Assembly (NCBI GenBank): GCA_018883365.1
Contig: VEQF01000010.1
Coordinates: 1-36,247 of the forward strand
Source: Candidatus Nanopelagicaceae bacterium
Lineage (GTDB): Bacteria; Actinomycetota; Actinomycetes; Nanopelagicales; Nanopelagicaceae
DNA: 36,247 nt
Direction of reading: 5' to 3'
Below the pieces are notes generated by a model. It saw only the letters and a program-made list of their open reading frames with translations, was not told where the DNA came from and did not search any database. The translations under genes and the position numbers were made by a program. Positions 15,522 to 34,927 of the stretch are shown piece after piece (position 1 is the first letter of the stretch; every line of letters starts with the position of its first letter).

Positions 15522-16874
15522 GTGGAAATCACAGCAGCGCTGCGCAATGCATTAGGTCCTGATGCCACATTGATTACCGACCCGACGATTCTGCCCTCTT
15601 ATTCGAGAGACCAATCACAGATCGCCAAAAATGGCACGCCCATCGCGGTGTTGTTAGCCAAAAATGAAAGTGAAATTAGCGCCGCCGTTAAGTTTGCGTA
15701 TGAACATAACATTCCAGTAGTCGCACGTGGTGCCGGTAGCGGACTTTCCGGTGGTGCCAACGCGATTGATGGTTCACTTATAATCTCACTTGAGAAAATG
15801 AACCAGATAATCTCAATTGATTCAGCAAACTTGATAGCAGATGTCGAGCCCGGAGTGATTAATCTAGATTTGGATAAAGAGGTTTCAAAATTCGGTTTGG
15901 CTTATCTGCCAGATCCAGCCAGTCGAGAGTGGAGCACAATTGGTGGAAATGTTGCCACCAACGCAGGTGGTATGTGTTGCGTTAAATATGGGGTCACTTC
16001 ACACCATGTTCGTGCGGTTCGCATGGTTACATCTGATGGCAGCGTTGTTACTTTAGGAACTGCCCTCAAGAAATCAGTAACAAATTTAGATTTACTACAT
16101 TTGATAATTGGATCCGAGGGAACCTTAGGAATAGTCACTCAAGTAACCGTAGGTCTGGTGGTTCGGCCAAAACCGGCGACAACTTTAATTGCTACTTTTT
16201 CCTCAATTGACAGCGCTATGAAGGCGATACCCGAACTCGTCGCGCTTGGACCATCTATGTTGGAGGTAGTGGACTCAACAACATTACGGGCGGTCGAAGA
16301 ATGGAAGCCGCTTGGTTTTGAAAATGTAGGCACGGTCCTGTTATTCCAAAGTGATGATTCACCCGAGGTTTGCGCCAAAGCAGTAACAATTGCCGAGCGG
16401 CATGGGGCGATAGATGCCACATACTCTGATGATCCGCGTGATAGCGCAGATTTAATTCAGGTACGCAAACTTGCCTACCCAGCCTTAGAACGAAAGGGCG
16501 CAGCTCTGCTTGATGATGTTTGTGTTCCAATTTCCCAGATTTCCAACCTAGTTACTGAGGTAGAGAAAATTGCCGCAGAATCCGGGCTGCTAATTGGAAT
16601 TTTCGGCCATGCTGGCGATGGAAATATGCATCCCACAATCGTCTACGAACATGGAGATGTGGCAGCCGAACAACGTGCAGTTCAAGCTTTTAATTCGATT
16701 ATCAAAGTGGCTCAAAAGCTCGGCGGCACCGCATCTGGTGAACATGGAATTGGTTCCATCAAAGTGGACTCAGCAAAACGCGAAACTTCAGATCGGGTGA
16801 CAGAACTGCAGCGTTCAATCAAAAAGGTTTTTGATCCAAAGGGGATACTTAACCCAGGAAAGAAAATTCCTTAA
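15522..16874 (+). CDS. FAD-linked D-2-hydroxyacid oxidase (GlcD / D-lactate dehydrogenase type)
   Basis: This 450-residue flavoprotein has an N-terminal PCMH FAD domain (about 35-210) with the pyrophosphate-binding ARGAGSGLSGGANA and the GGNVATNAGG loop, then a FAD-oxidase C domain (about 215-448) with GHAGDGNMHP (metal/substrate histidines) and GEHGIGSIK near the end. The family oxidises glycolate or D-lactate, passing electrons to the respiratory chain. No GlcE or GlcF partner is adjacent. Its position next to a peptidoglycan-recycling locus makes D-lactate, released by MurQ, an attractive substrate; this is inference. The gene converges on the serine hydrolase gene with a 26-nt overlap. 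Confidence 0.88.
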   Translation: MEITAALRNALGPDATLITDPTILPSYSRDQSQIAKNGTPIAVLLAKNESEISAAVKFAYEHNIPVVARGAGSGLSGGANAIDGSLIISLEKMNQIISIDSANLIADVEPGVINLDLDKEVSKFGLAYLPDPASREWSTIGGNVATNAGGMCCVKYGVTSHHVRAVRMVTSDGSVVTLGTALKKSVTNLDLLHLIIGSEGTLGIVTQVTVGLVVRPKPATTLIATFSSIDSAMKAIPELVALGPSMLEVVDSTTLRAVEEWKPLGFENVGTVLLFQSDDSPEVCAKAVTIAERHGAIDATYSDDPRDSADLIQVRKLAYPALERKGAALLDDVCVPISQISNLVTEVEKIAAESGLLIGIFGHAGDGNMHPTIVYEHGDVAAEQRAVQAFNSIIKVAQKLGGTASGEHGIGSIKVDSAKRETSDRVTELQRSIKKVFDPKGILNPGKKIP

Positions 16875-17877
16875 ACTCTTCGCACCAAATCTCATTCATA
16901 GTTTTGTAGTTTTCTTTAGTATGCAATCTATTGCTTAAGTAAATCCAGCTTTCTTTTTCTTGTAAGTTAATTGCAAAACCGGTGCCAGTAAAACCAAAAT
17001 GCCCCATTGCATATCCACTTTTGTTTAGCGCAAATCTGCGAAAGCCTACGCCTTGTACTAACGAATTTCGAGGTTGCGCAAAACTGATTAGTAGAGGAGT
17101 AGGTATAAATTCCTCTAATAATGCAGAGGTGAAAATCTTTAAATCTTCCATAGTAGAAAAAAGTCCTGCATGGCCTGATATGCCTTTGAAAACATGGAAA
17201 GCATTTCCATCGTTTATCTCGCCCGATAAAACATGCTCCCGCCAATTCTTGAAGTCAGAAACTTGTTCTGGCACTACATATGGGGATTTAGTGGAGACCA
17301 TCTTGTACTCAATTGAATCTCCAATAGATGTGGCCGCCACATTGGATTGGTCTGTGGGGGCCGCAAATTGGGTGTTTTTCAAGCCTAATGGCTGAGCAAT
17401 CTCGGATCTAAAAATTTTATCCAGCGAATCGCCGAATACCTTTGTGAGCACTACGCCGAGAGTTATGAAATTCAAATCACTGTAGTGAAACTCTTTTTGC
17501 TTTGGATACTTAAGGGGTAGCGAAATGATCTTGCTTAATACTTGTTCTGGATTAGAGCAAGAAATATAAAAAGGGCGCCATTCCTCCATCCCCGATTCAT
17601 GCCGCAACAAATCTTCAATTGTTATCTCAGCTTTATCTATAGAGTTCCATTGTGGAATAAAGTTACTGACTGAGTCTGAGATTTTTATCAATCCAGAATC
17701 TACCGCCTTCAATATCAGAGTCGTAGTACAAAGAACTTTAGTAACTGAAGCTAAATCAAAACTAGTAGATTCATTAATCGGACTAATCATAGATACACCG
17801 AAGCTCGAGGTGTTACCTGATACTCGAGATTGCCATTTGTCATTGGAAAACTTGGCAATCGCTTTGGCTGAGGTCAC
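16849..17877 (-). CDS. Serine hydrolase, beta-lactamase/AmpC-like family, possible AmiE-type muramyl amidase
   Basis: This 342-residue protein has the penicillin-recognising fold: nucleophile motif S44-V-T-K47, second motif Y132-S-D134 in FHYSDLNFITLG, and third motif H293-F-G295 in GHFGFTGTG. There is no signal peptide, so it should act in the cytoplasm, unlike true beta-lactamases or secreted carboxypeptidases. Bacillus subtilis AmiE, a member of this family, cleaves MurNAc from L-Ala and lies in a mur operon; the neighbours here (dipeptide epimerase, anmK, importer, murQ) suggest a similar job on imported muropeptides. The start overlaps the epimerase stop as ATGA. Another peptidase or esterase role cannot be excluded. 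Confidence 0.85.
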   Translation of the reverse strand: MTSAKAIAKFSNDKWQSRVSGNTSSFGVSMISPINESTSFDLASVTKVLCTTTLILKAVDSGLIKISDSVSNFIPQWNSIDKAEITIEDLLRHESGMEEWRPFYISCSNPEQVLSKIISLPLKYPKQKEFHYSDLNFITLGVVLTKVFGDSLDKIFRSEIAQPLGLKNTQFAAPTDQSNVAATSIGDSIEYKMVSTKSPYVVPEQVSDFKNWREHVLSGEINDGNAFHVFKGISGHAGLFSTMEDLKIFTSALLEEFIPTPLLISFAQPRNSLVQGVGFRRFALNKSGYAMGHFGFTGTGFAINLQEKESWIYLSNRLHTKENYKTMNEIWCEEFKEFSFLG

Positions 17878-18839
17878 GAACTGACCTTACTTGCTTGGTA
17901 ATTGATTTTGCTATCTTTAATCCACCACGCCGCATCAAGATCGTGAATTACATCCGGCGCTACAAGATTTGCCAAATTAATAGCGGCTCGAATTCCGAGA
18001 TCTCCCTCCATCATCGAGCCGATAGAAACATTTAGACCTGCAGCTTGAGCATCACGCACTAATTTAAGAGCAGGAGATACGCCGCCAGCTTTTAGAATTT
18101 TTATATTCAAGAATTCAAAGGCCCCACTTTCCAAGGTTTTCATGAGATCTTCGGAGGTAAAGCAGGATTCATCGGCCATAAGGGGAATGCTTGATCGTTC
18201 CGCCAATGCTTTGTGCCCTGGTAGATCAAATCTATGTAACGGTTGCTCCAAATACTCAATATGTGCCCCGGTTTTTGCCAATTCCGCCGACGCGCGGATT
18301 GCATAATCGAGCTGCCATGCTTGGTTGGGATCAATCCTTATCAAGGCATACTCCCCGGCAAGATCTCTAATAATCTCCACCCGGCGCAATAAGTTAGAAA
18401 TGGAATCCTGTTCTACCTTTAATTTAAAGGCGGTGAAGCCAGCCGCTTTTCTATCAGCCACAATCTTTGGAAGCTCAGATAATTGAGCAATAGGTATTGT
18501 GACATCGGTTTTTACTGAACAACTTTCACTTGGTTCTAAATTCCACCAAGCCATGTCCAAGGCAGCTTTGCTGCTATTCAGTAGATCCAAATCTGCAATT
18601 ACCTCAGGTGTTATCTCGGTTAATGCTTGAACTTGCTTCGAGTTTAATTCCTGCCATATTTCCTCAAAACTATCGCCAGAAATTTGTGGAGTAGCAACGC
18701 ATTCGCCAACTCCAATTTCTCCAGACTCCAGTTGAACGCTAACTCGTATTACCGGATAGGCGCTAACCTGACGAAGCGCAGTTATAAATGGTTCTTTCAA
18801 GTGAACCATTTCTTGCGAAACAGTGATACTTTTAATCAT
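17874..18839 (-). CDS. Dipeptide (L-Ala-D/L-Glu) epimerase, enolase superfamily
   Basis: This 321-residue enzyme has an enolase-superfamily capping domain then a TIM barrel. Catalytic K139-L-K141 (KxK), metal ligands D170 (RIDPNQAW), E198 (EQP) and D223 (ADES), and the opposite-face lysine K247 in NIKILKAGG are all present. A C-terminal D300-L-D302 matches the DxD that binds the dipeptide amino group in this subgroup. L-Ala-D-Glu from murein peptides would be turned to L-Ala-L-Glu for ordinary peptidases. Its ATG abuts the ATG of the divergent GNAT gene (CATATG), so its promoter must lie inside that gene; no clear -10 box was seen. It overlaps the serine hydrolase start by 4 nt. Confidence 0.9.
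   Translation of the reverse strand: MIKSITVSQEMVHLKEPFITALRQVSAYPVIRVSVQLESGEIGVGECVATPQISGDSFEEIWQELNSKQVQALTEITPEVIADLDLLNSSKAALDMAWWNLEPSESCSVKTDVTIPIAQLSELPKIVADRKAAGFTAFKLKVEQDSISNLLRRVEIIRDLAGEYALIRIDPNQAWQLDYAIRASAELAKTGAHIEYLEQPLHRFDLPGHKALAERSSIPLMADESCFTSEDLMKTLESGAFEFLNIKILKAGGVSPALKLVRDAQAAGLNVSIGSMMEGDLGIRAAINLANLVAPDVIHDLDAAWWIKDSKINYQASKVSS
18827..18832 (+). promoter_or_regulatory. -10 box for leaderless GNAT gene, inside the epimerase gene
   Basis: TACTTT ends 7 nt before the ATG at 18840. It lies within the first codons of the divergent epimerase gene, since the two start codons touch. Confidence 0.4.
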
Positions 18840-19334
18840 ATGGAGTTTCGCACTGCTTCTCTTGCCGAGCTAACAGATATTGCAAAGTTGTTCCATGCTT
18901 GCTGGCATGTTTCATATAAAGATCTTTTGTCAGAAGAGGTACGAATAGAAATGACTGTTGATGAAGCAGCCAATTTATGGCGTCCTTCGTTGGTTGAGCC
19001 AAATGGCAAAGAGACAGTAATTGGAACCCTTGGAACACAAATTGTTTCAGTATTTCGGATTGGCGCCGAGAAAGAGAATCCTGAAAATGGCCATCTTTTC
19101 TCGCTGTATGTAAATCCTGAAGTGGCAGGGCAGGGGTTAGGCAAGAAATCTTTGCTTGAGGCGCAAAGTAGATTGCGCCAAAAAGGCTTTAAAACCATGA
19201 GTTTATGGGTTTTTGAAAAGAATGAGATCGCCAAAGGTTTGTACCAAAGTTTTGGATTCCATCCAACTGGATCCTCCAGAGTTGATGAACGCTGGAAAGA
19301 GACCGAGATTGAAATGTCCAAAACACTTACCTGA
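18840..19334 (+). CDS. GNAT-family N-acetyltransferase
   Basis: This protein of 164 residues has a GNAT fold with the acetyl-CoA pyrophosphate loop VAGQGLGKKSL (Q/R-x-x-G-x-G) near residue 97-107, followed by helix and the C-terminal ALW-like FEKNEIAKGLYQSFGF region. The acceptor substrate is unknown. The frame is open back to 18684, but the natural start is the ATG at 18840 (MEFRTASLAELTDI), which fits the family N-terminus and lies 7 nt after a TACTTT box. It stands alone on plus between the minus-strand anmK and epimerase genes, and its last 8 nt overlap anmK. Context hints at amino-sugar or peptide acetylation, not shown. Confidence 0.85.
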   Translation: MEFRTASLAELTDIAKLFHACWHVSYKDLLSEEVRIEMTVDEAANLWRPSLVEPNGKETVIGTLGTQIVSVFRIGAEKENPENGHLFSLYVNPEVAGQGLGKKSLLEAQSRLRQKGFKTMSLWVFEKNEIAKGLYQSFGFHPTGSSRVDERWKETEIEMSKTLT

Positions 19335-20484
19335 TAACTACTTTGTAATTTCCTTCAGGTTTTGGTTTTGGCAACTGTAATGGCTCTGCGCCAGGTGTAA
19401 ATGAACCCAATATGCGATTTCCTTTTGCGCCTGTGCATGAAGGCACAGCGCCTGGCAATCCAAACCAGGATAAGAAGCCAATCAGCGCAAAGGTGGCTGA
19501 TTCTTTTTGTCTAGGGTCAAGGCCTAAAACTGACATTGGCTGGACTTTGCAATTAGGCAATCTTTCTTGCAAACGAGACATCATTAATGGATTTGCAGAT
19601 CCCCCACCATGAATGTACAGATTTGATAAGTTAAATCGATCTACCTCTATTGCTACCGTTTCAACAGTCAACTCCAAAAGCGTTCTTACTACATCGGCAA
19701 TCTTCCAACTTTCAACCGGGCCAAAGAAGCTCTCAATGTAAGGCAGATGAAATAGCTCCTTGCCAGTTGATTTTGGTGGCTGAGCTTTGTAGTAAGGCTC
19801 CTCAAGCATTTTCGCCAGGACCGCTTGATTGATCGCACCTGTCAAGGCAATCTGAGAATCCTTGTCATACTTTATTTTTCCTTTTGAATGCGCTTGAAGC
19901 GCTGCATCCATTAATCCATTTGCCGGCCCAATGTCATATGCAATTGGTGACATTCCACGTCCAGTCACTGTGATGTTGGAAATTCCACCAAGATTTAAAG
20001 CTCCGACCGGTTCGTTGTAATCGCCAAACATCATTTGATCCATAAGGCTTACTAATGGGGCACCATGACCACCCGCGGCCACATCTCTAGAACGAACGTT
20101 GGAAAGCACCGGTATGCCGGTGTTTTCAGCGATCCATGTGGGTTCCCCCAACTGCAAAGTTCCCAGAGCGTGGTTGTTTTCAATCCAATGAAACAGGGTC
20201 TGACCATGAGAAACAATCAATTGAACATCGTGGGTTCCGATTACCTCTTTGGCAGCAGCCGCAAAAGCTTGACCAATATAGGTATCTAACTGACAAACCC
20301 GTTCCATATCAATTGAGCGTGGCGGCATTGAGTCAGCTATTAGTGCATGAAGTTTTTCTTCATAAGGAAAACTCTTGAAGTTTAAAACCTCTAATGTAAT
20401 TTCACCGTTGTTTTCCTGAAAATCGCATAAAGCAACATCAATTCCATCATAAGATGTTCCAGAAATCATTCCTACGATTTTCAC
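19327..20484 (-). CDS. anmK: Anhydro-N-acetylmuramic acid kinase
   Basis: This 385-residue kinase opens 1,6-anhydro-MurNAc and phosphorylates it to MurNAc-6-phosphate using ATP. The family start MISGTSYDGIDVAL is present, as are GHGAPLV, LNLGGISNITV and YDIGPANGLMD with the catalytic aspartate, and the HGGGSANP phosphate loop. Length is typical. I place the start at GTG 20484 (VKIVGMISGTS) because GGAGGT lies 6 nt upstream; a TTG at 20502 is the other option. It overlaps the ABC ATPase stop as GTGA, so it is the last coupled gene of the importer run. Its product is the substrate of MurQ encoded at the head of this gene run. Confidence 0.95.
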   Translation of the reverse strand: MKIVGMISGTSYDGIDVALCDFQENNGEITLEVLNFKSFPYEEKLHALIADSMPPRSIDMERVCQLDTYIGQAFAAAAKEVIGTHDVQLIVSHGQTLFHWIENNHALGTLQLGEPTWIAENTGIPVLSNVRSRDVAAGGHGAPLVSLMDQMMFGDYNEPVGALNLGGISNITVTGRGMSPIAYDIGPANGLMDAALQAHSKGKIKYDKDSQIALTGAINQAVLAKMLEEPYYKAQPPKSTGKELFHLPYIESFFGPVESWKIADVVRTLLELTVETVAIEVDRFNLSNLYIHGGGSANPLMMSRLQERLPNCKVQPMSVLGLDPRQKESATFALIGFLSWFGLPGAVPSCTGAKGNRILGSFTPGAEPLQLPKPKPEGNYKVVIR

Positions 20485-21431
20485 TTTAATACCTCCGGAC
20501 AAGCCACTAAATGGTGTGAAGTCAATTCCAGAAGCTCTGGTACTTTTTCAGCACAAGCTGGAACTGCAATCGGACATCTCTGATTGAAGGCACAACCCTT
20601 AGGAAGATTAGCTGGATCAGGAACTTCACCTTCGAGAACATTTTCAAAATCAATCCCACGAACTGTAGTGTGTTCTGGAATAGATTGAATTAGAGCTTTG
20701 GTGTAAGGATGCTTTGGGGAACTTAAAACCTCGCTCCAACTGCCATATTCAACAACTCTTCCTAAATACATAACTGCGATGTCATCGCTGATATGTCGAA
20801 CCATAGATAAGTCATGACTAATGAAGATGTAGGTAAGATTAAATTGGTTTTTTAGATCAACTAATAAATTCATCACATCTGCGCGTACTGAGACATCCAA
20901 AGCGGATACCGGCTCATCAAGTACCAATAAATCTGGCTCTGCCGCCAAAGCTCTTGCAATAGCTACACGCTGTCGTTGGCCACCAGAGAGCTGGTGTGGG
21001 AAGCGGTTTTGCATATCTTCCGCAATTCCAACTACTGATAAAAGCTCAATTACTCGCGCATTTACTTGATCTTCAGCCCTTAACTTGTGGGTTTTAATCA
21101 CTTCAGCAATGCATGCCCCGATGGTCTGTCTTGGGTTGAGCGATGAGTACGGATCTTGAAATACCAACTGCGTTTTTGTGTGATGACTCCTAAGACCATT
21201 TCGCACCCCTTGGCCCAAAGGAGCTCCGCTCCAATTTAGTGAACCTTCAGTTGGCTGCTCTAACCCCACTATTAATCTTGCCAATGTTGATTTACCACAA
21301 CCGCTCTCTCCAACAATGCCAAGAGTTTTGCCTTTTTCAACTGTTAAGGAGACTCCATTTAACGCGTTCACAACAGTTTTGCGGGATTTAATACTGTACT
21401 TCTTTGTCACATCGCGAATAGTTAATGTCAT
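20481..21431 (-). CDS. Oligopeptide-type ABC transporter ATP-binding protein (DppF/OppF-like)
   Basis: This 316-residue ATPase energises the import complex. It has Walker A GESGCGKST, Q-loop in LVFQDPYSSLNP, signature LSGGQRQRVAIARAL, Walker B LLVLDEPVSALD and the C-terminal oligopeptide-transporter extension with cysteines (CAFNQRCP). The ATG at 21431 is chosen because GGGAGG lies 6 nt upstream and it overlaps the previous stop as ATGA; the frame continues to 21458 without signal. Cargo is inferred to be murein peptides or anhydroMurNAc-peptides from the linked anmK, murQ and epimerase. Confidence 0.93.
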   Translation of the reverse strand: MTLTIRDVTKKYSIKSRKTVVNALNGVSLTVEKGKTLGIVGESGCGKSTLARLIVGLEQPTEGSLNWSGAPLGQGVRNGLRSHHTKTQLVFQDPYSSLNPRQTIGACIAEVIKTHKLRAEDQVNARVIELLSVVGIAEDMQNRFPHQLSGGQRQRVAIARALAAEPDLLVLDEPVSALDVSVRADVMNLLVDLKNQFNLTYIFISHDLSMVRHISDDIAVMYLGRVVEYGSWSEVLSSPKHPYTKALIQSIPEHTTVRGIDFENVLEGEVPDPANLPKGCAFNQRCPIAVPACAEKVPELLELTSHHLVACPEVLK

Positions 21432-22390
21432 GAAGCACCTCCCAATGGAAAGAAGCAAGCGACTGATCCCGTTTGATTATTTTTTAACTCAGGGCGATGA
21501 CTAAAACAAATGTCCTTAGCGCTGCTGCAACGAGGTGCAAAAGCGCAATTATTAATAACTTGCCAAGGTTTTGGCGGAACCCCAGGTATTGAAGCTAATT
21601 TCTCGCGGTTGTTACCTACAGCTGGTAAGGATGCAAGTAGACCAGCGGTGTAGGGATGCTTTGGAGCTTTGAACATTTCCTCAACTGTTCCTACTTCAAC
21701 AACTCGACCGGCATACATAACAATGACTCGATCAACAAGATTTGCCACAACCCCCAAGTCATGAGTGATCCAAAGCATCGACATTTGGCGTCGTTTTCTC
21801 TCGCGTGCCACTAAAGCCAATATCTGCCGCTGAATTGTCACATCCAGGGCGGTTGTGGGCTCATCTGCAATTAGCAGCTGTGGTGATAAGAGAAGTGACA
21901 TCGCAATCATCACTCTTTGACGCATTCCCCCAGAAAATTCATGTGGATAGCTATCAAAAGCACGATCTGGATCAGCTATTCCAACCGCAGCCAAACCATT
22001 GAGAATATGGGCTTTTCTATCGGCGATTTCGTGTTCGTGTGAGTCTAAAACCTCCATTAGTTGGTCGCCGATTTTCATGACCGGATTAAGAGCGGTCATC
22101 GGGTCCTGATAAATCATCGCAATTTGATTGCCTCTGATTTCGCGCATTTCCTCAGTTGAAAGTTTTAGCAAATCCTTGCCTTGGAAATTTATTTCTCCTG
22201 AATCAATCCTTAAGCCCCTCGCTAGAAGACCCAGAATAGAAAGGGCTGAAAGGGTTTTACCTGAACCGCTTTCGCCAACAACACCTACCGCCTCACCTGC
22301 TTTTAGTTCAAAACTGACATCGTTGACTAATACTCTTTTGTCATCGGAGATTACAACCGATAAATTCTTTATCTCAAGTAAATTACTCAT
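21428..22390 (-). CDS. Oligopeptide-type ABC transporter ATP-binding protein (DppD/OppD-like)
   Basis: This 320-residue ATPase is the second nucleotide-binding subunit. It has GESGSGKTLSAL (Walker A), MIYQDPMTALNP, FSGGMRQRVMIAMSL (signature), LLIADEPTTALD (Walker B) and a C-terminal cysteine extension (NCAFAPRCSSAKDIC), as in OppD/DppD. AAGGAG lies about 6 nt before the ATG. Its start overlaps the permease stop and its stop overlaps the next ATPase as ATGA, so all are made together. Confidence 0.93.
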   Translation of the reverse strand: MSNLLEIKNLSVVISDDKRVLVNDVSFELKAGEAVGVVGESGSGKTLSALSILGLLARGLRIDSGEINFQGKDLLKLSTEEMREIRGNQIAMIYQDPMTALNPVMKIGDQLMEVLDSHEHEIADRKAHILNGLAAVGIADPDRAFDSYPHEFSGGMRQRVMIAMSLLLSPQLLIADEPTTALDVTIQRQILALVARERKRRQMSMLWITHDLGVVANLVDRVIVMYAGRVVEVGTVEEMFKAPKHPYTAGLLASLPAVGNNREKLASIPGVPPKPWQVINNCAFAPRCSSAKDICFSHRPELKNNQTGSVACFFPLGGAS

Positions 22391-23253
22391 CCGCTGCTCC
22401 TTCTTGCCGGATCTAGAGCATCGCGAAGTCCGTCACCAACAAGATTTAAGCCAACCACTACAACAGTTATGAATAACGATGGGAAGAACAAAGACCACCA
22501 AGCAAAAGCGGCTAATGGTTGAGCTTCAGAAACCATCAAGCCCAGAGACGCATCTGGTGGTTGGGTGCCAAGTCCCAAGAAAGACAATCCAGATTCAGTC
22601 AGAATAGCCCAAGACAGTGAAAGAGCAATCTGCACAACAATCGGCGCTAAAACATTTGGCATGACATGACGAATCAAGATTCTTGGAGTTGAGAAGCCCA
22701 ATACCCGAACTGATTTCACGTAATCCATCTCTTTTACCGTTAGTACCGGACCGCGAGCAACCCTGATAAAAATCGGGGTATAAACAATGGCAATTGCAAT
22801 TGAGGTATCAATCCAGGAATTACCCAGACTGTTTACGATAGCTAGCGCCAACAGAATCGCTGGGAAAGCGAAAATAACATCGCTGGCTCGCACTACCAAT
22901 CCATCGAGCCAACCACCGAAAAACCCTCCAATGACACCTAGAAATACCCCAACCAGCGCCGCGATTCCGACTGACAGCAAAGCCACAGATAATGAGCGGC
23001 TCATGCCATCGATCGAACGCGAAAAAATATCTCTACCAAATTGATCTGTGCCAAACCAATAAGTGCCACTAGGTCCTTTAAGGGCATCTACTGGGTTTTG
23101 CTCGAGTGGATCAATTGGAGCCAAATTGAGCGCCGAAATTATGGAAAGCGTGACCATGATTAGCACCAGAATTAAACCAATGACTCCACTTGTGCTTTTA
23201 AAGTAGTAATGCACCCAGTCTTTACTCGATGCTGCTTTTGTTTCTTTACTCAT
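22387..23253 (-). CDS. Oligopeptide-type ABC transporter permease (DppC/OppC-like)
   Basis: This 288-residue permease has an N-terminal membrane segment followed by the binding-protein-dependent permease domain, including GTDQFGRDIFSR near residue 70 and the EAA loop (VRVLGFSTPRILIRHVMPN) that contacts the ATPases. About six membrane helices are visible. The ATG at 23253 overlaps the DppB-like stop as ATGA and is preferred to a TTG at 23286. Confidence 0.92.
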   Translation of the reverse strand: MSKETKAASSKDWVHYYFKSTSGVIGLILVLIMVTLSIISALNLAPIDPLEQNPVDALKGPSGTYWFGTDQFGRDIFSRSIDGMSRSLSVALLSVGIAALVGVFLGVIGGFFGGWLDGLVVRASDVIFAFPAILLALAIVNSLGNSWIDTSIAIAIVYTPIFIRVARGPVLTVKEMDYVKSVRVLGFSTPRILIRHVMPNVLAPIVVQIALSLSWAILTESGLSFLGLGTQPPDASLGLMVSEAQPLAAFAWWSLFFPSLFITVVVVGLNLVGDGLRDALDPARRSSG

Positions 23254-24194
23254 TTGATTCTTGGATCCACCTTTCGATAAACCCAATCGGTGATCAAGTT
23301 AATGGTCACAAACAAAATTGCAAAAACCATAATGCTGCTTTGCACCGTGGCATATTCACGCTTATTGATGGCGTCCAAGATTTGTCGGCCCATTCCGGGT
23401 AGCGCAAATATTTTTTCAACAATGACCGCTCCACCAAGAAGATAGCCAAATTGAATACCAGTCATAGTCACGATAGGAATCAATGAATTTCTCAGTACAT
23501 GTTTTAATCGGACCACCCTAGGTTTAACACCTTTACCATATGCGGTACGAATGAAATCTTTGTCTACCGTTTCAAGTAATGCTGATCGGGTAGTTCTCAT
23601 AATTGGTGCGGCAACCGCTATCCCTAAAACCAAGCTTGGAAATAACATCTGTTGCAGATTCATAGATAGATCTTCAAATGGGGTCATATATTCATAGCCA
23701 TTTGGGAAATACTGAAACTTGTTGGCCATTACCGTCACAATGGTTGTGCTCAAAACAAAACCTGGGATGGCTAAGGCTAAAAGACCAAAAAATTGACCCA
23801 GAAAATCACGTGCGCTACCGGGCTTACGGGCGCTGAACATGCCGATTGAGATACCAATCAAAACCCCCAAAAGGGTGCCAAATAAGGCTAATTGCATGGT
23901 TACCAAAAGCGCTGACTTGGTTAGATCCCAAACAGGGGCACCGGTCGAGTAAGAAAAACCTAAATCACCGGATAAGAAGCTGCTCATCCAAGATAAATAT
24001 TGACCAATTAGTGGTTGATCAATTCCATAATACTTACGCAAGCTCTCGATTTGCTCTGGAGTTAGTACACCAGTTTCAATACCAAGTGAGCTAGTAATTG
24101 TGTCACCTGGAATTACTCGTAAAACTACAAAAACAAAAACAGAAATACCAAATAGTGTCGTCAGCACTGAGGGTAAGCGCTTAAGAAAAGCCAT
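23250..24194 (-). CDS. Oligopeptide-type ABC transporter permease (DppB/OppB-like)
   Basis: This 314-residue membrane protein opens with the family segment LTTLFGISVFVFVVLRVIPGD, has the periplasmic region with YGIDQPLIGQYLSW, and the EAA loop (RTAYGKGVKPRVVRLKHVLRN). Six membrane helices are expected. An AAGGA lies about 7 nt upstream of the ATG. A strong stem-loop separates it from the binding-protein gene. It pairs with the DppC-like permease. Confidence 0.93.
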   Translation of the reverse strand: MAFLKRLPSVLTTLFGISVFVFVVLRVIPGDTITSSLGIETGVLTPEQIESLRKYYGIDQPLIGQYLSWMSSFLSGDLGFSYSTGAPVWDLTKSALLVTMQLALFGTLLGVLIGISIGMFSARKPGSARDFLGQFFGLLALAIPGFVLSTTIVTVMANKFQYFPNGYEYMTPFEDLSMNLQQMLFPSLVLGIAVAAPIMRTTRSALLETVDKDFIRTAYGKGVKPRVVRLKHVLRNSLIPIVTMTGIQFGYLLGGAVIVEKIFALPGMGRQILDAINKREYATVQSSIMVFAILFVTINLITDWVYRKVDPRIK

Positions 24195-24272: not shown

Positions 24273-25787
24273 TTAACCAAGCTGAGCGGAACGAAGCTGT
24301 AGCAACGATCCGTTTGCTAGTGCGGAGAATCCACGTAGCTTCTTTGTTGCTACGCGATACTCAAATGGAGTCGCAAGCCATACCCAAACCGCATTGTCTT
24401 CAAGCTCCTTGGAGATTGCGACATATGAGCTCTTTCGATCTGCCACTTTGCCACTTGCTTTGCCCTTGATGAAGTTTGCATCAAGAGTTGCAGATGAATA
24501 AGTAGCAACCTTGTTTAGGTTTCCAGTTGAGGTGAAGTAGCGGGTGTACATGGTGTCTGGATCAATACGTCCACCATTGTTAGCCAATGTTGCGGTGAAA
24601 TCCGCCGCTAACCAACGAGGCACGTAAGTCGCCTGCTCAACGATATCCAAATCCATTGTGATATTTACCTTAGCTAGCTGCGCCTTTAGGTTTTGTGCCA
24701 TCGCGACTGAAGTTGCCCAGCCAGTGCTGGTAACGAGAGTTTTGAAAGTTACACCTGAAGACTTTCCTGCAGCTGCTAGGTATTCCTTAGCTTTTGCTAA
24801 ATCCTGCTTAGGGCAAGGACGAGCAAGTGGGTCAGAACGGAAAGCTGGGCTGGTGATTGGACCAGTTACTTGGCCTTGGCCAAGCAAAGCGGTATTAATC
24901 AACTCATTACGGTCAATCGCACACTGAATAGCAAGACGTACGTTCTTGTCATTCAAAGGTGCGACCTTTGTGTTGAACTGCAATGCGTAGTAACCAAGAG
25001 CTGGGGTCTTGAACATCTTCAGATTGCTCTTTACCTGACGCGCAATCAGCGGATCAGTAACAATTCCCATTCCAATTGTTCCTGCATTAAGCGCTGAAAG
25101 AATTGAAGCTTCATTTGGGATTACGCGGATTGTTACATCCTTGATTTTTGGTTCGCCCATGAAGTAATCAGAGTTAGCAGTCAATTTCAATGATTGAGTT
25201 GGCTCCCATGAAACCCACTTGTAAGGACCGGTTCCGTTTGGCTTGTTAGCGCCACCAATCTTTCCGGCATCAATGTCAGCCTTGGAAAGCATCGCCATGT
25301 TTACACCTTCAAGTGCAGCGAGAATCGGTGCGTTTGGAATAGACATGTTCAAAATCAACTTACGGCCATCTGCCTTAATTGACGTGATTGTTGCGATATT
25401 TGCACGAGCAGCAGCGCCGGTCTTTGTATCAAGAATACGCTCTAGAGATGCTTTTGCATCATCTGCATCAAAAGTTGATCCGTCGTGGAACTTAACGCCT
25501 TGACGAAGGTTGAGAGTTAGAGTCTTTCCATCTTTAGAAAAAATCCAAGAAGTTGCCAGACCACCCTTGATTGCGTTTTTGGCACCAATCTCAATCAAGC
25601 TGCCATAAACCAAACCAAGTCCACGAACTGTTGCGAAGTTTGTCGCGGTATGTGGATCTGTTTTATCGATATCTAGAACGCTGCCAATTACCAAACTGGT
25701 ATCTGCAGCTCTTGCGGGCTGGCCAACGAAAATGCCGCCGAGCATGGCGGTAATCGCAAGGCCGGTCCATACTTTACGTAGTTTCAC
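24273..25787 (-). CDS. ABC transporter substrate-binding protein, SBP family 5
   Basis: This protein of 504 residues is the extracellular receptor of the importer. A Sec-type signal is present: basic VKLRK, a hydrophobic core and ARA before ADTS; no lipobox cysteine is seen, so attachment is unclear. Family 5 features include GLVYGSLIE, LRQGVKFHDGSTFDADDAKASL and RLAIQCAIDRNELI. Members bind peptides and, in MppA, murein tripeptide. The GTG at 25787 is chosen because AAAGGA lies about 6 nt upstream; the frame runs to 25817. It follows murR, and a dyad lies just upstream. Ligand inferred from context to be a muropeptide or sugar-peptide. Confidence 0.92.
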   Translation of the reverse strand: MKLRKVWTGLAITAMLGGIFVGQPARAADTSLVIGSVLDIDKTDPHTATNFATVRGLGLVYGSLIEIGAKNAIKGGLATSWIFSKDGKTLTLNLRQGVKFHDGSTFDADDAKASLERILDTKTGAAARANIATITSIKADGRKLILNMSIPNAPILAALEGVNMAMLSKADIDAGKIGGANKPNGTGPYKWVSWEPTQSLKLTANSDYFMGEPKIKDVTIRVIPNEASILSALNAGTIGMGIVTDPLIARQVKSNLKMFKTPALGYYALQFNTKVAPLNDKNVRLAIQCAIDRNELINTALLGQGQVTGPITSPAFRSDPLARPCPKQDLAKAKEYLAAAGKSSGVTFKTLVTSTGWATSVAMAQNLKAQLAKVNITMDLDIVEQATYVPRWLAADFTATLANNGGRIDPDTMYTRYFTSTGNLNKVATYSSATLDANFIKGKASGKVADRKSSYVAISKELEDNAVWVWLATPFEYRVATKKLRGFSALANGSLLQLRSAQLG

Positions 25788-25826
25788 TTGCTTTCCTTTC
25801 AACGAGGGATAACTCAATCCTTCTCT

Positions 25827-25854
25827 TTAACGACCTGTTGGTCAAGCACGTTAA
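25827..25854. promoter_or_regulatory. Nested inverted repeat upstream of the SBP gene, possible operator or weak terminator
   Basis: Outer arms TTAACG and CGTTAA flank an inner GACC-tgtt-GGTC. The site overlaps the murR stop codon and lies about 40 nt before the SBP start. It may bind the MurR-family regulator or act as a hairpin between murR and the transporter genes. It has no T-run. Confidence 0.35.
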
Positions 25855-26765
25855 CTGAGAGAACTTCGTTTTGATACTGCAGATCTTGATACATCCAGAG
25901 CGGTTTTGGTTTCACTCCAGTTTCTCTGTGCCATTGCGACACAGAGACAGTCAACCACCGTTAATTGTGCTATTCGTGACGCAGTTGCCCCACTACGGAA
26001 GGTGGTTTCCGTAGCTGAGGTGTAAATAACTAAATCTGCAATATCTACAGCTGCACTTCTAATTGAATTTGTAATCAATACAATTACCACGCCGCGGCTT
26101 TTGAACTCTCGCATCACATCTATTGTGTCTATTGTGGAACCAGAGTGAGAGATTGCAACTAAGACATCGCCTTTTTCTAAAACCGCTATTGAAGTCATTG
26201 CGGCGTGGAAATCGGTCCAAGCAATTGCTCGTTTTGAGAGTCGATTTAGTTTTGCCTGAAAGTCTAATGCGACAAAACCGCTTGAGACTAATCCGAACAA
26301 ACCAATGGTGTTTGATTTTTCAAACAACTTTATTACATCTTCTATCGTTTTGAGATCCATTTGTCTGGCGGTGGATTCAATTGCTCGAGCATCAGAAAAA
26401 GTTATCTTCTTTATTATTTCTGAAAGACTATCTGAAGTAGTTATTCCACCATCTAACAACTCGGTATCTATTTGCTTTGCGCTTTTCCATGACAATTCTC
26501 CAACTAAAGCCATCTTAAACTCTGGAAAGCCGCGATAACCTAAAGTTTTACTAAATCTAACTACTGACGAAACGGAGGTCTTGCTGTGATTCGCCAGCTG
26601 GGTAATATTCATAGAGGCAATTTTGTGTGGATCTTTTAAAACACAATTTGCAATCGCAGCTTCGCTGGCATGAAAGTTATTTATTTGACTTTGTATTGAC
26701 TCCAAAAGATTTGGATGGGGCGTGCTTTGCACAATCGAAAGCGGTTTAGCCACAATCTCTCCCAT
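25851..26765 (-). CDS. murR: MurR/RpiR-family transcriptional regulator
   Basis: This 304-residue regulator has an N-terminal RpiR helix-turn-helix (about 20-95, with MNITQLANHSKTSVSSVVRF as recognition region) and a C-terminal SIS sugar-phosphate-binding domain (about 135-265, with GLFGLVSSGFVAL and VAISHSGSTIDTI). In E. coli, MurR represses murQP and senses MurNAc-6-phosphate. Here it sits between murQ and the importer, so the same signal is likely. The ATG at 26765 has no ribosome site; a GTG at 26753 lies just after GGGAGAG and could be the true start. 59 nt separate it from murQ. Confidence 0.88.
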   Translation of the reverse strand: MGEIVAKPLSIVQSTPHPNLLESIQSQINNFHASEAAIANCVLKDPHKIASMNITQLANHSKTSVSSVVRFSKTLGYRGFPEFKMALVGELSWKSAKQIDTELLDGGITTSDSLSEIIKKITFSDARAIESTARQMDLKTIEDVIKLFEKSNTIGLFGLVSSGFVALDFQAKLNRLSKRAIAWTDFHAAMTSIAVLEKGDVLVAISHSGSTIDTIDVMREFKSRGVVIVLITNSIRSAAVDIADLVIYTSATETTFRSGATASRIAQLTVVDCLCVAMAQRNWSETKTALDVSRSAVSKRSSLS

Positions 26766-26824: not shown

Positions 26825-27736
26825 TCAAGGATTTCCGGCTTTTTTTATCGCTTCTCTTACCTTCGAATTTGCCTCATTCAGAGCGTTCTCGGCAACTTCG
26901 CGGGGCACTTGTAACAACAACATGACGATTGCGACCTTGACCTGGTTGTTGGATGCAATCAGGGCTTCTTCTGCAGTTTTAGCATCAGCTTGTGTCGCGG
27001 CCTGAATGATACGGATTGCTCGATCTCGTAGCTTTACATTGGTCACCTGCAAATCGACCATAAGGTTTCCAAAAGTCTTACCCAAATTAATCATGGTGAC
27101 CGTTGAAATCATGTTCAAAACTAATTTCTGAGCAGTTCCAGCTTTCATTCTTGTCGACCCAGCTAAAACCTCGGGTCCAGTATCAACTTCGATAGCCACA
27201 TCAGCGTACTTCGACATTTCAGAGTTTGGGTTACAGGTGAGCGCTATAGACAATGCACCGATTGATTTTGCATACTCCATAGCACCAATTGCATATGGTG
27301 TTCTTCCGCTAGCAGCGATTCCAACCACTGTGTCTACATTAGAGAGCTTTAGCTTTTTTAATTCTTGAACTGATGACTCTCTATTGTCTTCCGCACCTTC
27401 AATACCTTTACGAAGTGCAATATCGCCACCTGCAATTAATCCAATTACTACACCTTCCGGAATTGAAAAAGTTGGTATGCACTCTGATGCATCTAGAACG
27501 CCGAGGCGGCCAGATGTACCGGCACCGACATAAATCAAACGACCACCTTGCGACATGCGCTTTGTAGTCTCAAGAATTGTTTGCTCAATTTGTGGCAAAA
27601 CTTTTGACACCGAAACGGAAACACTTTGATCATTCTCATTAAATAGCTTTAGGAGTTCTGATGTTGAAAGAAAATCAATTTGGGAATATCTCGGATCAAT
27701 TGTTTCCGTATTTAGCTTGCCAATGTTTTCCGCCAT
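26825..27736 (-). CDS. murQ: N-acetylmuramic acid 6-phosphate etherase
   Basis: This 303-residue SIS-domain enzyme cleaves the lactyl ether of MurNAc-6-phosphate to GlcNAc-6-phosphate and D-lactate. The signature GGRLIYVGAGTSGRLGVLDA (65-84) is intact, with catalytic E85 in ASECIPTF and E116 in GAEDN, and the later ALTCNPNSEMS and GSTRMKAGTAQKLVLN blocks. Length is typical. It leads the mur-importer-anmK run. A TAGGGT box 8 nt before the ATG suggests a near-leaderless mRNA, in only 27 nt shared with divergent tspO. Confidence 0.96.
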   Translation of the reverse strand: MAENIGKLNTETIDPRYSQIDFLSTSELLKLFNENDQSVSVSVSKVLPQIEQTILETTKRMSQGGRLIYVGAGTSGRLGVLDASECIPTFSIPEGVVIGLIAGGDIALRKGIEGAEDNRESSVQELKKLKLSNVDTVVGIAASGRTPYAIGAMEYAKSIGALSIALTCNPNSEMSKYADVAIEVDTGPEVLAGSTRMKAGTAQKLVLNMISTVTMINLGKTFGNLMVDLQVTNVKLRDRAIRIIQAATQADAKTAEEALIASNNQVKVAIVMLLLQVPREVAENALNEANSKVREAIKKAGNP

Positions 27737-27763: not shown

Positions 27764-28231
27764 ATGGAAACCAAGTACTTATTGGCTGGAATCGGCATTT
27801 TCTTGGTTTTTGTTTACGCAATTGGCTCTGGAGTTTGGGTTTCTAGCTCCCCTAGTTGGTATGCGACTTTAAATAGACCAAACTGGCAGCCGCCGGATTT
27901 CATCTTTGGGATTATTTGGCCCTACAACTTTGTGGTCCTGGGCATTGCTGCATATAACGTTGCGCAGTCGCTATCTCGAAATTTGGCTCTAGCTTGGATT
28001 GTCGTATTCGCAGCCAGCGTAGCCAGCGCCCTAACTTGGGCTTATCAATTCTATGTTCCGCACAATTTATCTATTGCTGCAACGGCCTTAATAATTGCAG
28101 CGATACTGACGCTTCCGGTTCTTTATCTGACCTTTAAAGCATCGATACTGGTAGGAATTCTCCTTGTTCCGTATCAAATTTGGGTAATCATCGCCAGCAC
28201 TTTGGCTTGGGGTTATTCAACACGAAACTAG
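27764..28231 (+). CDS. TspO/MBR family tryptophan-rich membrane protein
   Basis: This 155-residue protein has five hydrophobic segments and the TspO pattern WYATLNRPNWQPPDFIFGII followed by WPYNFVVLGIAAYNV, then later tryptophans (LAWIV, LTWAYQFY). Family members bind porphyrins or cholesterol and act in tetrapyrrole or stress signalling; the local role is unknown. It is divergent from murQ and its last 4 nt overlap prpD at the opposite strand. No operon partner is present. Confidence 0.88.
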   Translation: METKYLLAGIGIFLVFVYAIGSGVWVSSSPSWYATLNRPNWQPPDFIFGIIWPYNFVVLGIAAYNVAQSLSRNLALAWIVVFAASVASALTWAYQFYVPHNLSIAATALIIAAILTLPVLYLTFKASILVGILLVPYQIWVIIASTLAWGYSTRN

Positions 28232-29682
28232 CGCTTTACCAGCAAATCCATTACTTGATCTACAGCAGCATTGGATAACTTTTCATAATCCAAGGTCAAG
28301 GCCGAAATCTCTTCTAGTTGCTTGCCATCGAAAATACGCGCCAAATTTGTTTGGTACTTCTTTACCAGCAAAGGTAATCCTTCTGCTCTACGACGTTTGT
28401 GTCCGACTGGATACTCGATAGCAACTTCATCCAAAACTGTGCCATCTTTAAGTGTGATGGTCATAGCGTTAGCGATAGAGCGTTTTTCTGGGTCATGGTA
28501 ATCCTTGGTGTACTGCACATCTTCAACGCAAATCATCTTTTCACGCAGCGCATCAATTCGTGGATCTGTCGCAACATCATCTTCATAATCACGTGCAGTC
28601 AACTTTCCAAAAATTAACGGAACCGCAACCATATATTGAATGGTGTGATCGCGATCTGCAGGGTTGCGCAACGGTCCTTTTTTATCGATGATTCTGATAC
28701 AGGCTTCGTGAGTACGGATCTTGATCTCTGCAATATCCTCAGAACTCTTGTCCATCTCCTGCAGTTTGGCATAGAGAATATGGGCCGCCTCGACCGCGGT
28801 TTGAGCGTGAAATTCAGCTGGGTATGAGATTTTAAAGAGCACATTTTCCATTACATATGAGCCATAAGGGCGTTGGAAAGCGAACTGCTTGCCTTTAAAT
28901 GAAACATCGTAAAAGCCCCAGGTAGGTGCAGTTAAAGCTGATGGGTATCCCATTTCACCAACCTGTGCCATAAGCGCTAATCGCACTGCACGCGATGTGG
29001 CATCACCTGCGGCCCAGGACTTTCTTGATCCAGCATTTGGAAAGTGTCGATAGGTGCGTAGTGATTGTCCATCAACCCAAGCTAAGGAAACCGCATTCAA
29101 AATTTGTTGGCGATCAAGCCCAAGCATCTGAGCAACAACTGCGGTTGAGGCAACCTTGACCAAAATAACATGGTCTAATCCAACTTTATTAAATGAGTTT
29201 TCTAATGCAATACAGCCTTGAATCTCATGTGCTTTAATCATGGCGGTAAAAACATCTCGCATTTTCAGCGGCTGTTGGGATTTGGTTAACTTATTTCGAG
29301 AAATCCAATCAGCAACCGCCAAGATTCCACCTAAATTGTCAGAAGGATGTCCCCATTCCGCCGCTAACCAGGTGTCATTGAAATCTAACCAGCGAATTGC
29401 GGTACCGATATTGAATGCGCCCTGTACTGGATCAAGTTCATAATCTGTACCAGGAACACGAACTCCATTTGGGACTCTCTGCCCTGGGGCAATAGGTCCC
29501 AACAATTTGGTACATGCTGGATACTCTAAAGATTCTAATCCGCAACCAATTGTGTCGATAAAACAATTCCAAGCTGTGGTGTAGGCCAACTCGGATGTGA
29601 TCTCGTAACTCATCACATAATCAACGATGTCTACAATCTCTTTATCAAAAGGAAGATCTGAGACGGTGAAGTTGGCTGACAT
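28228..29682 (-). CDS. prpD: 2-methylcitrate dehydratase (MmgE/PrpD family)
   Basis: This 484-residue enzyme dehydrates 2-methylcitrate to 2-methyl-cis-aconitate. PrpD features include the RWLDFNDTWLAAEWGHPSDNLGGIL active-site block near residue 97-121 and the ALSLAWVDGQSLRTYRH-type segment, with PADRDHTIQYMVAVPL toward the C-terminus. The length matches PrpD rather than shorter MmgE-like forms. It is the last gene of the tct-prp run, 3 nt after prpC. An aconitase or AcnD-type partner is not in the window. Confidence 0.93.
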   Translation of the reverse strand: MSANFTVSDLPFDKEIVDIVDYVMSYEITSELAYTTAWNCFIDTIGCGLESLEYPACTKLLGPIAPGQRVPNGVRVPGTDYELDPVQGAFNIGTAIRWLDFNDTWLAAEWGHPSDNLGGILAVADWISRNKLTKSQQPLKMRDVFTAMIKAHEIQGCIALENSFNKVGLDHVILVKVASTAVVAQMLGLDRQQILNAVSLAWVDGQSLRTYRHFPNAGSRKSWAAGDATSRAVRLALMAQVGEMGYPSALTAPTWGFYDVSFKGKQFAFQRPYGSYVMENVLFKISYPAEFHAQTAVEAAHILYAKLQEMDKSSEDIAEIKIRTHEACIRIIDKKGPLRNPADRDHTIQYMVAVPLIFGKLTARDYEDDVATDPRIDALREKMICVEDVQYTKDYHDPEKRSIANAMTITLKDGTVLDEVAIEYPVGHKRRRAEGLPLLVKKYQTNLARIFDGKQLEEISALTLDYEKLSNAAVDQVMDLLVKR

Positions 29683-29685
29683 GTT

Positions 29686-30822
29686 TTATCTCTTCTCTAT
29701 CGGAATAAAGCTCCGATTTTCCGGACCGGTGTAGTTTGCAGATGGCCTAATAATCTTGTTGTCTTCCCGTTGTTCAATTACATGACCCGCCCAACCAGTT
29801 AAGCGGGCAAATATGAAAATCGGGGTGAAAAAGCTAGTTGGGATGCCCATTTGGTTGTAGGCCACCGCGCTAAACCAATCTAGATTTGGGAACATCTTCT
29901 TTTCATTCCACATCACAGATTCCATCCGCTCAGCGACCGCAAAAAGGTTTTTGTCTTTATTTTCCTCTGAGAGCGCGCGAGCAACCTCTTTAATAATGGG
30001 GTTGCGTGGATCTGCAATTGTGTAAACCGGATGCCCAAAGCCGATTACTACCTCTTTGTTGGCTAATCTGAGTTTAAGATCATTTTCTGCTGCATCAGGT
30101 GAGTCATACCTTTGTTGAATCTCTAGCGCTACCTCATTTGCTCCACCATGTTTAGGGCCACGGAGTGCGCCGATGGCACCGGTCAAGGCTGAGTAAATAT
30201 CTGAACCTGTGCCCGCTATAACCCTAGCGGTGAAGGTAGATGCATTGAACTCATGTTCTGCATAAAGAATTAGTGAAACCTGCATCGCCTTGATCCAGGA
30301 TTGCTGAGATTGCTTTTGATGTAAAAGTGTTAAGAAGTGCTCGGCCACTGATGAAGCCCCAGTATTCAAATTAATTTTTTGCCCGGAGTTAGTGAAGTGG
30401 TACCAATACAGCAATGCAGATGGGGTTGATGCGATCAATCGATCGGCAACATCTCTTGCCTTTTGTGGCGTGTATGGCTCTGACTCTGAATAGAAACTGC
30501 CCAAAGCGGAGGTTGCGGTACGAACCACATCCATGGGGTGTGCTGTCTTTGGAATGCGCTCCAATATTTCTTTTACTTCAACCGGTAGATCACGTAAGGT
30601 TTTTAGTTTTTCCTTATATGAATTAAGTTGAGTTATATTGGGAAGTTCTCCATAGAGTATTAGATATGCGACCTCTTCAAATTCGCAGTTTTGTGCTAAA
30701 TCATTAATGTCATAGCCACGGTAATGCAAATCATTTCCAGTGTGACCAACTGTTGATAATGCGGTGTTTCCTGCTACTACCCCTGATAAAGCTACGGATT
30801 TCTTTGGTTTTGGCGCGGTCAT
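29686..30822 (-). CDS. prpC: 2-methylcitrate synthase
   Basis: This 378-residue citrate-synthase-fold enzyme joins propionyl-CoA and oxaloacetate. The N-terminal [20 protein letters not shown] and [11 protein letters not shown] are typical of PrpC rather than housekeeping citrate synthase. The catalytic residues appear in GPKHGGANE (His), GFGHPVY (His) and NLDWFSA (Asp). The start overlaps the prpB stop as ATGA. Some PrpC enzymes also make citrate, so dual use is possible. Confidence 0.94.
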
Positions 30823-31694
30823 GAGTTACGGAATTTATCCAAAGAGCTTTCATACTCGTAATAATTAATCCGCTGATAAAGCTCGTCTCTGGTTTGCATG
30901 GTGTCTATGACATTTTTTTGTGTGCCATCTCGGCGGATTGCTTCGTAAACATTCTCCGCAGCTTTATTCATAGCTCTAAATGCAGATAGCGGATAGAGCG
31001 CCATGGCAACCCCGGCTGACCTCAATTCCTCCACCGTAAACAAGGGAGTTAATCCAAACTCTGTGATGTTAGCTAGGACTGGAACATTTACCGCCGCGGT
31101 GAATCTGCGATAACTTTCTAAATCTCTGATTGCTTCTGGAAAAATCGCATCTGCTCCAGCAGCAACGTAAGCCTGTGCGCGTTCGATTGCGGCATCCATT
31201 CCTTCAACCGCAATTGCATCGGTGCGCGCCATGATGACAAACTCATCATCACCACGTGCATCAACCGCCGCCTTTACCCGATCAACCATCTCCTCTTTAG
31301 AAACAATCTCTTTATTGGGGCGATGACCACATCGTTTTGCGCCAACCTGGTCCTCCATATGAACTCCAGCAGCCCCCGCAGCTATCAATGAGGTTATGGT
31401 GCGGGCGATATTGAAAGCTGATGGCCCAAATCCGGTATCGATATCTACCAATAAAGGCACTTTGCAAACATTAACAATTCTTCGAACATCAATTAAAACA
31501 TCTTCTAATGTTGTAATTCCCAAATCCGGCAAACCAAGTGAACCAGCGGCAACTCCACCACCTGATAGATAGATTGCACGATAACCAGCGCGTTGTGCAA
31601 GCAGAGCATGATTGGCGTTTATGGTGCCGATAACTTGTAGCGGATATTCTTCTGCAATAGCTTCACGAAGTAATTTGCCCGCTGATTTCTTCAC
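30819..31694 (-). CDS. prpB: 2-methylisocitrate lyase
   Basis: This 291-residue enzyme splits 2-methylisocitrate to pyruvate and succinate. It has YLSGGG (42-47), metal-binding DIDTGFG (84-90), E114 in VHMEDQ and the catalytic loop K120-R-C-G-H124 followed by RPNKEIV, the PrpB form of the isocitrate lyase superfamily. GTG start lies 6 nt after a TAGGTT box, so a leaderless internal transcript is likely. It is coupled to prpC by a 4-nt overlap. Confidence 0.94.
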
Positions 31695-34406: not shown

Positions 34407-34927
34407 TAGCTAGCCGCCTGACTATTCAAGTCGGAGATTAAATTTTCTAGAATCCACTTTGGAAGTTGAATATCAAGTAGATTGGTAAAACTAAAATAAA
34501 CGAGGGTTGCAAATAGCAATGCAATCACACCGGTCTTCACAATCTTCTTAGCACCAAAACTGTATGCGACCGCCCAAAATGAAATTGTGGCTGAGATTAT
34601 GTAACCAGTTCTTTCAATCAAAAAGATGTGTAAGCCGATCGCCACAATAATGATAAACATAGGGCGCAAATCAGCTTTTTTAAATGAATCGCCCAGTTGC
34701 GTGCCTTCGGGGATTCCTTCTTTTCCGCGTAGCACCTGCCAGGCAACGCCAAGTGAAGTTAGCATCAACAATGTTGCAACAACATAAGGAAAGGTGCGAG
34801 GACTAACAACGGTGTTGTTGGTTGGCAAAACTAGGGAGTGTGTATCCCAATAAACAATTAGAGAAACAAGGAAGAGGGCGCAGGCAAAAACCAGCTCCCC
34901 CTTCCCTGCTTTGGAGACCTTCAACAA
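34406..34927 (-). CDS. tctB: Tripartite tricarboxylate transporter small subunit, TctB family
   Basis: This 173-residue protein has four hydrophobic segments, the usual TctB layout: one near 12-28, one near 45-63, and a pair around 90-150. Sequence conservation in TctB is low, so the call rests on size, topology and position between TctC and TctA. Start is TTG directly after the TctC stop. Stop overlaps TctA start. Confidence 0.88.
   Translation of the reverse strand: MLKVSKAGKGELVFACALFLVSLIVYWDTHSLVLPTNNTVVSPRTFPYVVATLLMLTSLGVAWQVLRGKEGIPEGTQLGDSFKKADLRPMFIIIVAIGLHIFLIERTGYIISATISFWAVAYSFGAKKIVKTGVIALLFATLVYFSFTNLLDIQLPKWILENLISDLNSQAAS

Follow-up and report, generated by a model that had tools for sequence, protein, structure and literature searches.

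A Signal-Less AmiE/PBP4B-Type Serine Hydrolase in a Muropeptide Uptake and Catabolism Cluster of “Ca. Nanopelagicaceae”: A Probable Cytoplasmic (Anhydro)MurNAc-L-Ala Amidase

Introduction

The locus described here raises the question of which enzyme might separate the sugar of a muropeptide from its peptide inside a Gram-positive cell. Muropeptide recovery is poorly known in Gram-positive bacteria that have neither AmpG nor the MurP transporter; Streptomyces coelicolor recycles MurNAc yet has no MurP (PMC5061867). In Bacillus subtilis, the murQRP-amiE-nagZ-ybbC cluster encodes AmiE (YbbE), a MurNAc-L-Ala amidase that is secreted (PMC5061867). The window analyzed in this study, i.e., the whole stretch of 36,247 nucleotides of contig VEQF01000010.1 (assembly GCA_018883365.1, a “Ca. 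Nanopelagicaceae” bacterium), encodes a serine hydrolase together with AnmK, MurQ, and a dipeptide epimerase. According to our analysis, this hydrolase is probably a cytoplasmic (anhydro)MurNAc-L-Ala amidase that supplies AnmK and the epimerase with their substrates, the cleaved bond being a prediction from its relatives and its gene neighbors.

The Hydrolase and Its Gene

The gene of the AmiE/PBP4B-type hydrolase (16849–17877, minus strand) is an open reading frame of 342 amino acids with a GTG start, assigned from profiles, motifs, an AlphaFold2 model and start-codon analysis. PF00144, the domain of the serine hydrolases with the class C beta-lactamase fold, is the only Pfam domain it matched in the profile search (138.5 bits; cut-off, 27), and no second gene of the genome carries this domain. 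The three catalytic motifs named in the preliminary description of this DNA were all located, as S44-V-T-K47, Y132-S-D134, and H293-F-G295, and they are invariant or nearly so in alignments of 21 and 63 relatives; further residues of interest are W212-R213, D223, and H236AGLF. The AlphaFold2 model, built from the 63-sequence alignment, reached a pLDDT of 93.4 and a pTM of 0.93.

The same description held that the protein has no signal peptide and is coupled to the epimerase, and both statements were borne out. An in-frame stop lies three codons 5' of the GTG, so that an N-terminal extension, and hence a signal peptide, is impossible; the only alternative start, M30, is downstream, and the first beta strand of the modeled fold begins at residue 5. 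The stop codon of the epimerase gene overlaps the start of the hydrolase in the sequence GTGA (17874–17877). Genomes of the same family have the gene too, at 33–63% identity and in the same order after AnmK, and therefore neither the reading frame nor the arrangement is due to chance. In one of these genomes (G013, L033:8684–9702) the frame of the hydrolase is broken around SxxK, which represents either a pseudogene or an assembly error.

The Surrounding Gene Cluster

The hydrolase belongs to a single muropeptide uptake and catabolism cluster, whose genes for MurQ, a MurR-like regulator, an Opp importer, AnmK, the epimerase, and the hydrolase itself all lie on the minus strand. The MurNAc-6-phosphate etherase MurQ (26825–27736, minus) scored above the TIGR00274 cut-off and AnmK (19327–20502, minus) above its own NCBIfam cut-off, and both of these enzymes of the anhydromuropeptide recycling pathway are thus present. 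Profile matches identified the RpiR/MurR-family regulator with HTH_6 and SIS domains (25851–26765, minus), the OppB-like permease (23250–24194, minus), and a family 5 solute-binding protein of the OppA/NikA-like type (24273–25817, minus). The OppC-like permease (22387–23286, minus) and the OppD-like (21428–22390, minus) and OppF-like (20481–21458, minus) ATPases were assigned by sequence and by the conserved order of the cluster. The solute-binding protein is the proposed muropeptide receptor; its nearest solved relatives (AgaA, AppA, and NikA) give no hint of the ligand.

The dipeptide (L-Ala-D/L-Glu) epimerase (17874–18839, minus) was recognized by profiles and by its closest solved structure, that of the B. 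subtilis L-Ala-D/L-Glu epimerase AEE (1jpm/1tkk), with which the C-terminal DxD motif aligned. In this enzyme, the motif binds the dipeptide by its free ammonium group, and the muramyl amide should therefore be cut before the epimerase step. Between AnmK and the epimerase lies a GNAT acetyltransferase on the opposite strand (18840–19334, plus), which is kept in the cluster. It is a constant neighbor of AnmK and the hydrolase, as seen also at L052:9435–9896.

On the other side, a GlcD/D-lactate-dehydrogenase-like FAD oxidase (15522–16874, plus; profile matches) is convergent with the hydrolase and overlaps its 3' end by 26 bp. It adjoins the hydrolase only within the genus (L032–L034) and may consume the D-lactate that MurQ sets free.

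Pathway Enzymes Elsewhere in the Genome

In the draft genome (1.25 Mb, 92.6% complete, so that an absent gene may be unsampled), searches for single families gave no match to GH3/NagZ, Amidase_2/AmpD (PF01510), NamZ, or GH20. The genome does encode MltG and two NlpC/P60 proteins whose N-termini are signal-like. Since no GH3, GH20, or NamZ match was found that would remove GlcNAc, the form in which the muropeptide is imported is uncertain. AmpD acts on its substrate with or without GlcNAc (PMC9790009), and the hydrolase might do the same.

Subfamily and Phylogenetic Position

Among the NCBIfam profiles, PBP4B (NF002968) gave the best score for the hydrolase (102.7 bits), although its equivalog cut-off of 385 was not reached. 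The AmpH, class C beta-lactamase, and LipL profiles followed at 45–39 bits, with the class C beta-lactamase profile NF033085 at 39.4 bits against a cut-off of 415, and the D-aminopeptidase profile NF009622 gave 18.7 bits against 443. The hydrolase carries the signature YSD + G-x-V-[HN]-D-x-N ... GHAG[LV]F and, judged from this sequence pattern, is a member of the subfamily that includes Escherichia coli PBP4B and the AmiE of Bacillaceae. The B. subtilis protein was represented in our comparison by syntenic Bacillaceae orthologs (L155, L157, and L202), which share the fold and signature; the Planomicrobium locus L202 (RpiR-MurQ-MurP-MupG-hydrolase-NagZ-NamZ) has essentially the layout of the B. 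subtilis amiE cluster, in agreement with the earlier statement that AmiE has this fold and is encoded in a mur operon. In E. coli, yfeW lies in murQ-murP-yfeW, and subfamily members across phyla adjoin murQ, murR, murP, namZ, nagZ, or anmK.

In our trees, the hydrolase fell into its own AnmK-linked clade (support 100/99), separate both from the Bacillaceae/actinobacterial AmiE and from YfeW. For this reason we regard it as an AmiE-like variant. The idea of a cytoplasmic AmiE-like enzyme stands as regards location, subfamily, and linkage to AnmK and MurQ, but the protein lies outside the AmiE clade of Bacillaceae. A second AnmK-linked signal-less clade, comprising Thermomicrobium roseum, Paenibacillus, Tumebacillus, and two MAGs, is placed elsewhere in the tree, which suggests that the move into the cytoplasm occurred at least twice, in Actinomycetota and in the Bacillota/Thermomicrobiota branches.

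The fold by itself does not discriminate between functions. Compared with PDB structures, the AlphaFold2 model gave Z values of 29–32, with esterases, AmpC, R61, and acyltransferases scoring alike. An esterase or deacylase of the EstB/family VIII type that is merely located in the operon and acts on something other than peptidoglycan would be compatible with esterases being equal top scorers, yet the tie extends to AmpC and the DD-peptidases. Such an enzyme is very improbable in view of the signature GExxD...GHAG[LV]F, which almost all of 80 relatives share and whose central block is left unaligned by the PDB matches, and of the linkage to mur genes conserved in several phyla. No chain among the matches listed in the sequence search of solved structures aligned across GExxD...GHAGLF, and no solved member of the subfamily was recognized there. 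A clear grouping with esterases or D-aminopeptidases, which would have spoken against an amidase, was seen neither in the profiles nor in the signature or the tree; the proposed comparison of profiles instead led to PBP4B and, together with the signature and the tree, to the syntenic AmiE and YfeW.

More weight is due to a peptidase, i.e., a cytoplasmic LD/DD-carboxypeptidase or endopeptidase that trims stem peptides while another enzyme cuts the muramyl amide. PBP4B, the best-scoring profile, goes by the name of a DD-carboxypeptidase in the literature (Vega and Ayala, 2006, as cited in PMC5061867), and the fold is also that of the R61 DD-peptidase and of alkaline D-peptidase. We nevertheless consider this function unlikely: the genome has no match to an AmpD-type amidase that could perform the amide step, the hydrolase accompanies AnmK even where the epimerase is missing (see below), and the syntenic AmiE of the same signature subfamily corresponds to a proven amidase of B. 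subtilis (PMC5061867). Moreover, a cytosolic DD-carboxypeptidase would, by established reasoning, threaten UDP-MurNAc-pentapeptide.

Fusions are known in this subfamily. Some members are joined to a GH3 domain, and a planctomycetotal reading frame (L153:5370–8909) combines a GH95 (fucosidase-type) domain with an AmiE-like hydrolase domain. Homologs were also seen on a plasmid of Haladaptatus (L055:5710–6951), an archaeon and thus from a domain that lacks peptidoglycan, and as Priestia pbp4b (L054:6674–8035), with a sulfite oxidase gene near both.

Linkage to AnmK and Other mur Genes

Within the family, sampled by 73 genomes (G000–G072), AnmK was found in nine, belonging to five genera, and these are exactly the nine that have a close homolog of the hydrolase; the chance of this coincidence is 1e-11 if shared ancestry is ignored. 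Both genes lie on one contig within a few kb, except in G017, where the contigs end. Eight of the nine genomes gave no match to GH3. The loci of the same family (L032–L039) keep the order Opp-AnmK-GNAT-(epimerase)-hydrolase, and many of them have RpiR and MurQ too.

A sample of 396 genomes of the phylum contained AnmK in 17 and the hydrolase subfamily in 38; both occurred in nine genomes and were adjacent in four, from several families. The arrangement is OppABC-MurQ-AnmK-hydrolase-OppDF in Nonomuraea, while in Embleya an RpiR-Opp operon is divergent from hydrolase-AnmK-GNAT-epimerase, and in T. roseum the order is nagA-hydrolase-AnmK-NagZ-BadF-MurQ. Linkage of the hydrolase to AnmK was also found in Leifsonia, Streptomyces shenzhenensis, Pedococcus, Paenibacillus foliorum, and others. 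Most AnmK-linked loci outside the family retain AnmK without the epimerase, which indicates that the hydrolase follows the sugar kinase and not peptide processing.

Signal Peptides and Cellular Location

Signal-like N-termini, called by a home-made rule that misses some true signals (e.g., in several NamZ-linked actinobacterial members), were found in 1 of 25 AnmK/Opp-linked members of the subfamily vs. 32 of 47 NamZ/MurP-linked members (Fisher p = 6e-8, shared ancestry ignored). In another actinobacterium (G112), the GNAT and the hydrolase form one reading frame (L040:4727–6346), which joins the hydrolase to an enzyme of a type that depends on CoA and is cytoplasmic. Together with the upstream stop codon and the start of the fold at residue 5, this fusion strongly supports a cytoplasmic location.

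The characterized AmiE is extracellular (PMC5061867), and by this precedent the hydrolase could be exported by a non-classical route and act outside the cell, with MurNAc or anhydroMurNAc imported afterward. This scenario is hardly credible given the impossibility of an N-terminal extension, the signal-less state common to 24 of the 25 AnmK/Opp-linked members, and the fusion to a GNAT; in addition, the cell would then have no need of a peptide-type importer or a dipeptide epimerase.

The residues W212-R213 are situated just before the conserved G-x-x-D block. The W-R pair is present in 23 of the 25 AnmK/Opp-linked members vs. 3 of 42 NamZ-linked members, and by this correlation it is a candidate specificity determinant. 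Five signal-less members from Nitrospirota and Myxococcota/Deltaproteobacteria (L156, L165, L168, L181, and L186) also have the pair and are possibly further cytoplasmic forms; among the markers searched, no mur genes were found near them.

Proposed Pathway

The preliminary description had placed a sugar-peptide upstream of AnmK, and the AnmK linkage upholds this; the same linkage favors an anhydroMurNAc-peptide over a MurNAc-peptide as the substrate. We infer both this preference and the order of steps. Secreted MltG-type and NlpC/P60 enzymes would set free (1,6-anhydro)muramyl peptides, which may be shortened to the dipeptide and would then be taken in by the Opp-type ABC importer, whose predicted ligand they are. 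The hydrolase would form an acyl-enzyme on Ser44 with the participation of Lys47/Tyr132 and cut what is presumed to be the lactyl-L-Ala amide bond, standing in for AmpD, which has no match in the genome. The freed sugar would pass to AnmK, yielding MurNAc-6P, and then to MurQ, yielding GlcNAc-6P and D-lactate. The released L-Ala-D-Glu, with its amino end now free, would be converted by the epimerase and degraded by ordinary peptidases.

Several known systems resemble parts of this scheme. AmiE is the nearest in function, as the same bond is proposed for the hydrolase, both genes lie beside murQ/murR, and the fold and subfamily signature are shared with the syntenic Bacillaceae orthologs (30% identity to that of Neobacillus, L157). 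In contrast, AmiE is a secreted protein whose gene accompanies nagZ/namZ/murP, whereas the hydrolase is signal-less, belongs to a separate clade, and has AnmK and an Opp importer as its genomic neighbors. PBP4B (YfeW) of E. coli has 27% identity, shares the YSD and GHAGLF motifs, and is next to murQ, but YfeW starts with a signal-like hydrophobic N-terminus, and the hydrolase lies far under the equivalog cut-off (103 vs. 385 bits). AmpD of Gram-negative bacteria would occupy the same place in the pathway, being intracellular and upstream of AnmK, although it is a zinc enzyme of the Amidase_2 family with unrelated fold and chemistry. YejBEF-YepA, the muropeptide ABC importer of Agrobacterium tumefaciens (PMC9790009), is likewise a peptide-type ABC transporter in the role of AmpG, but it is encoded at a separate locus in a Gram-negative bacterium with AmpD and NagZ; in the locus described here the importer is clustered with the catabolic genes, and AmpD and NagZ gave no match. 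The RmNag3-type fusions carry a domain of the same hydrolase subfamily joined to a NagZ-like GH3 (PMC6987092), and these large proteins are unlike the stand-alone hydrolase; a signal peptide is predicted for RmNag3, and glucosaminidase was the sole activity assayed (PMC6987092).

The literature searched, which covered few subscription papers, yielded no description of a cytoplasmic AmiE, of muropeptide use in acI actinobacteria, or of an ABC importer with a cytoplasmic AmiE-type amidase and AnmK but without AmpD/NagZ. The parts are of known kinds, and their combination is new to this literature. On balance, we lean slightly toward the view that these genes represent a second, AmpD-free form of muropeptide recycling, which would combine ABC import, a cytoplasmic AmiE-type serine amidase sparing UDP-MurNAc-pentapeptide, AnmK, and MurQ. 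The cluster also suggests the relocation of a secreted serine amidase to the cytoplasm, where it would replace the zinc enzyme AmpD and would have to leave the wall precursors of the cell itself intact. It is found again in Streptomyces, Leifsonia, Nonomuraea, Paenibacillus, and others, and it provides a specific explanation, open to testing, of how Gram-positive bacteria without AmpG and MurP may recover muropeptides.

Other Genes in the Window

Beyond murQ, two further regions of the window (28228–31694 and 32898–36055, both minus) contain methylcitrate-cycle-like genes, encoding PrpD, a citrate/methylcitrate synthase, and a PrpB-like lyase, which are followed by an MFS-like gene and genes resembling a tripartite tricarboxylate transporter.
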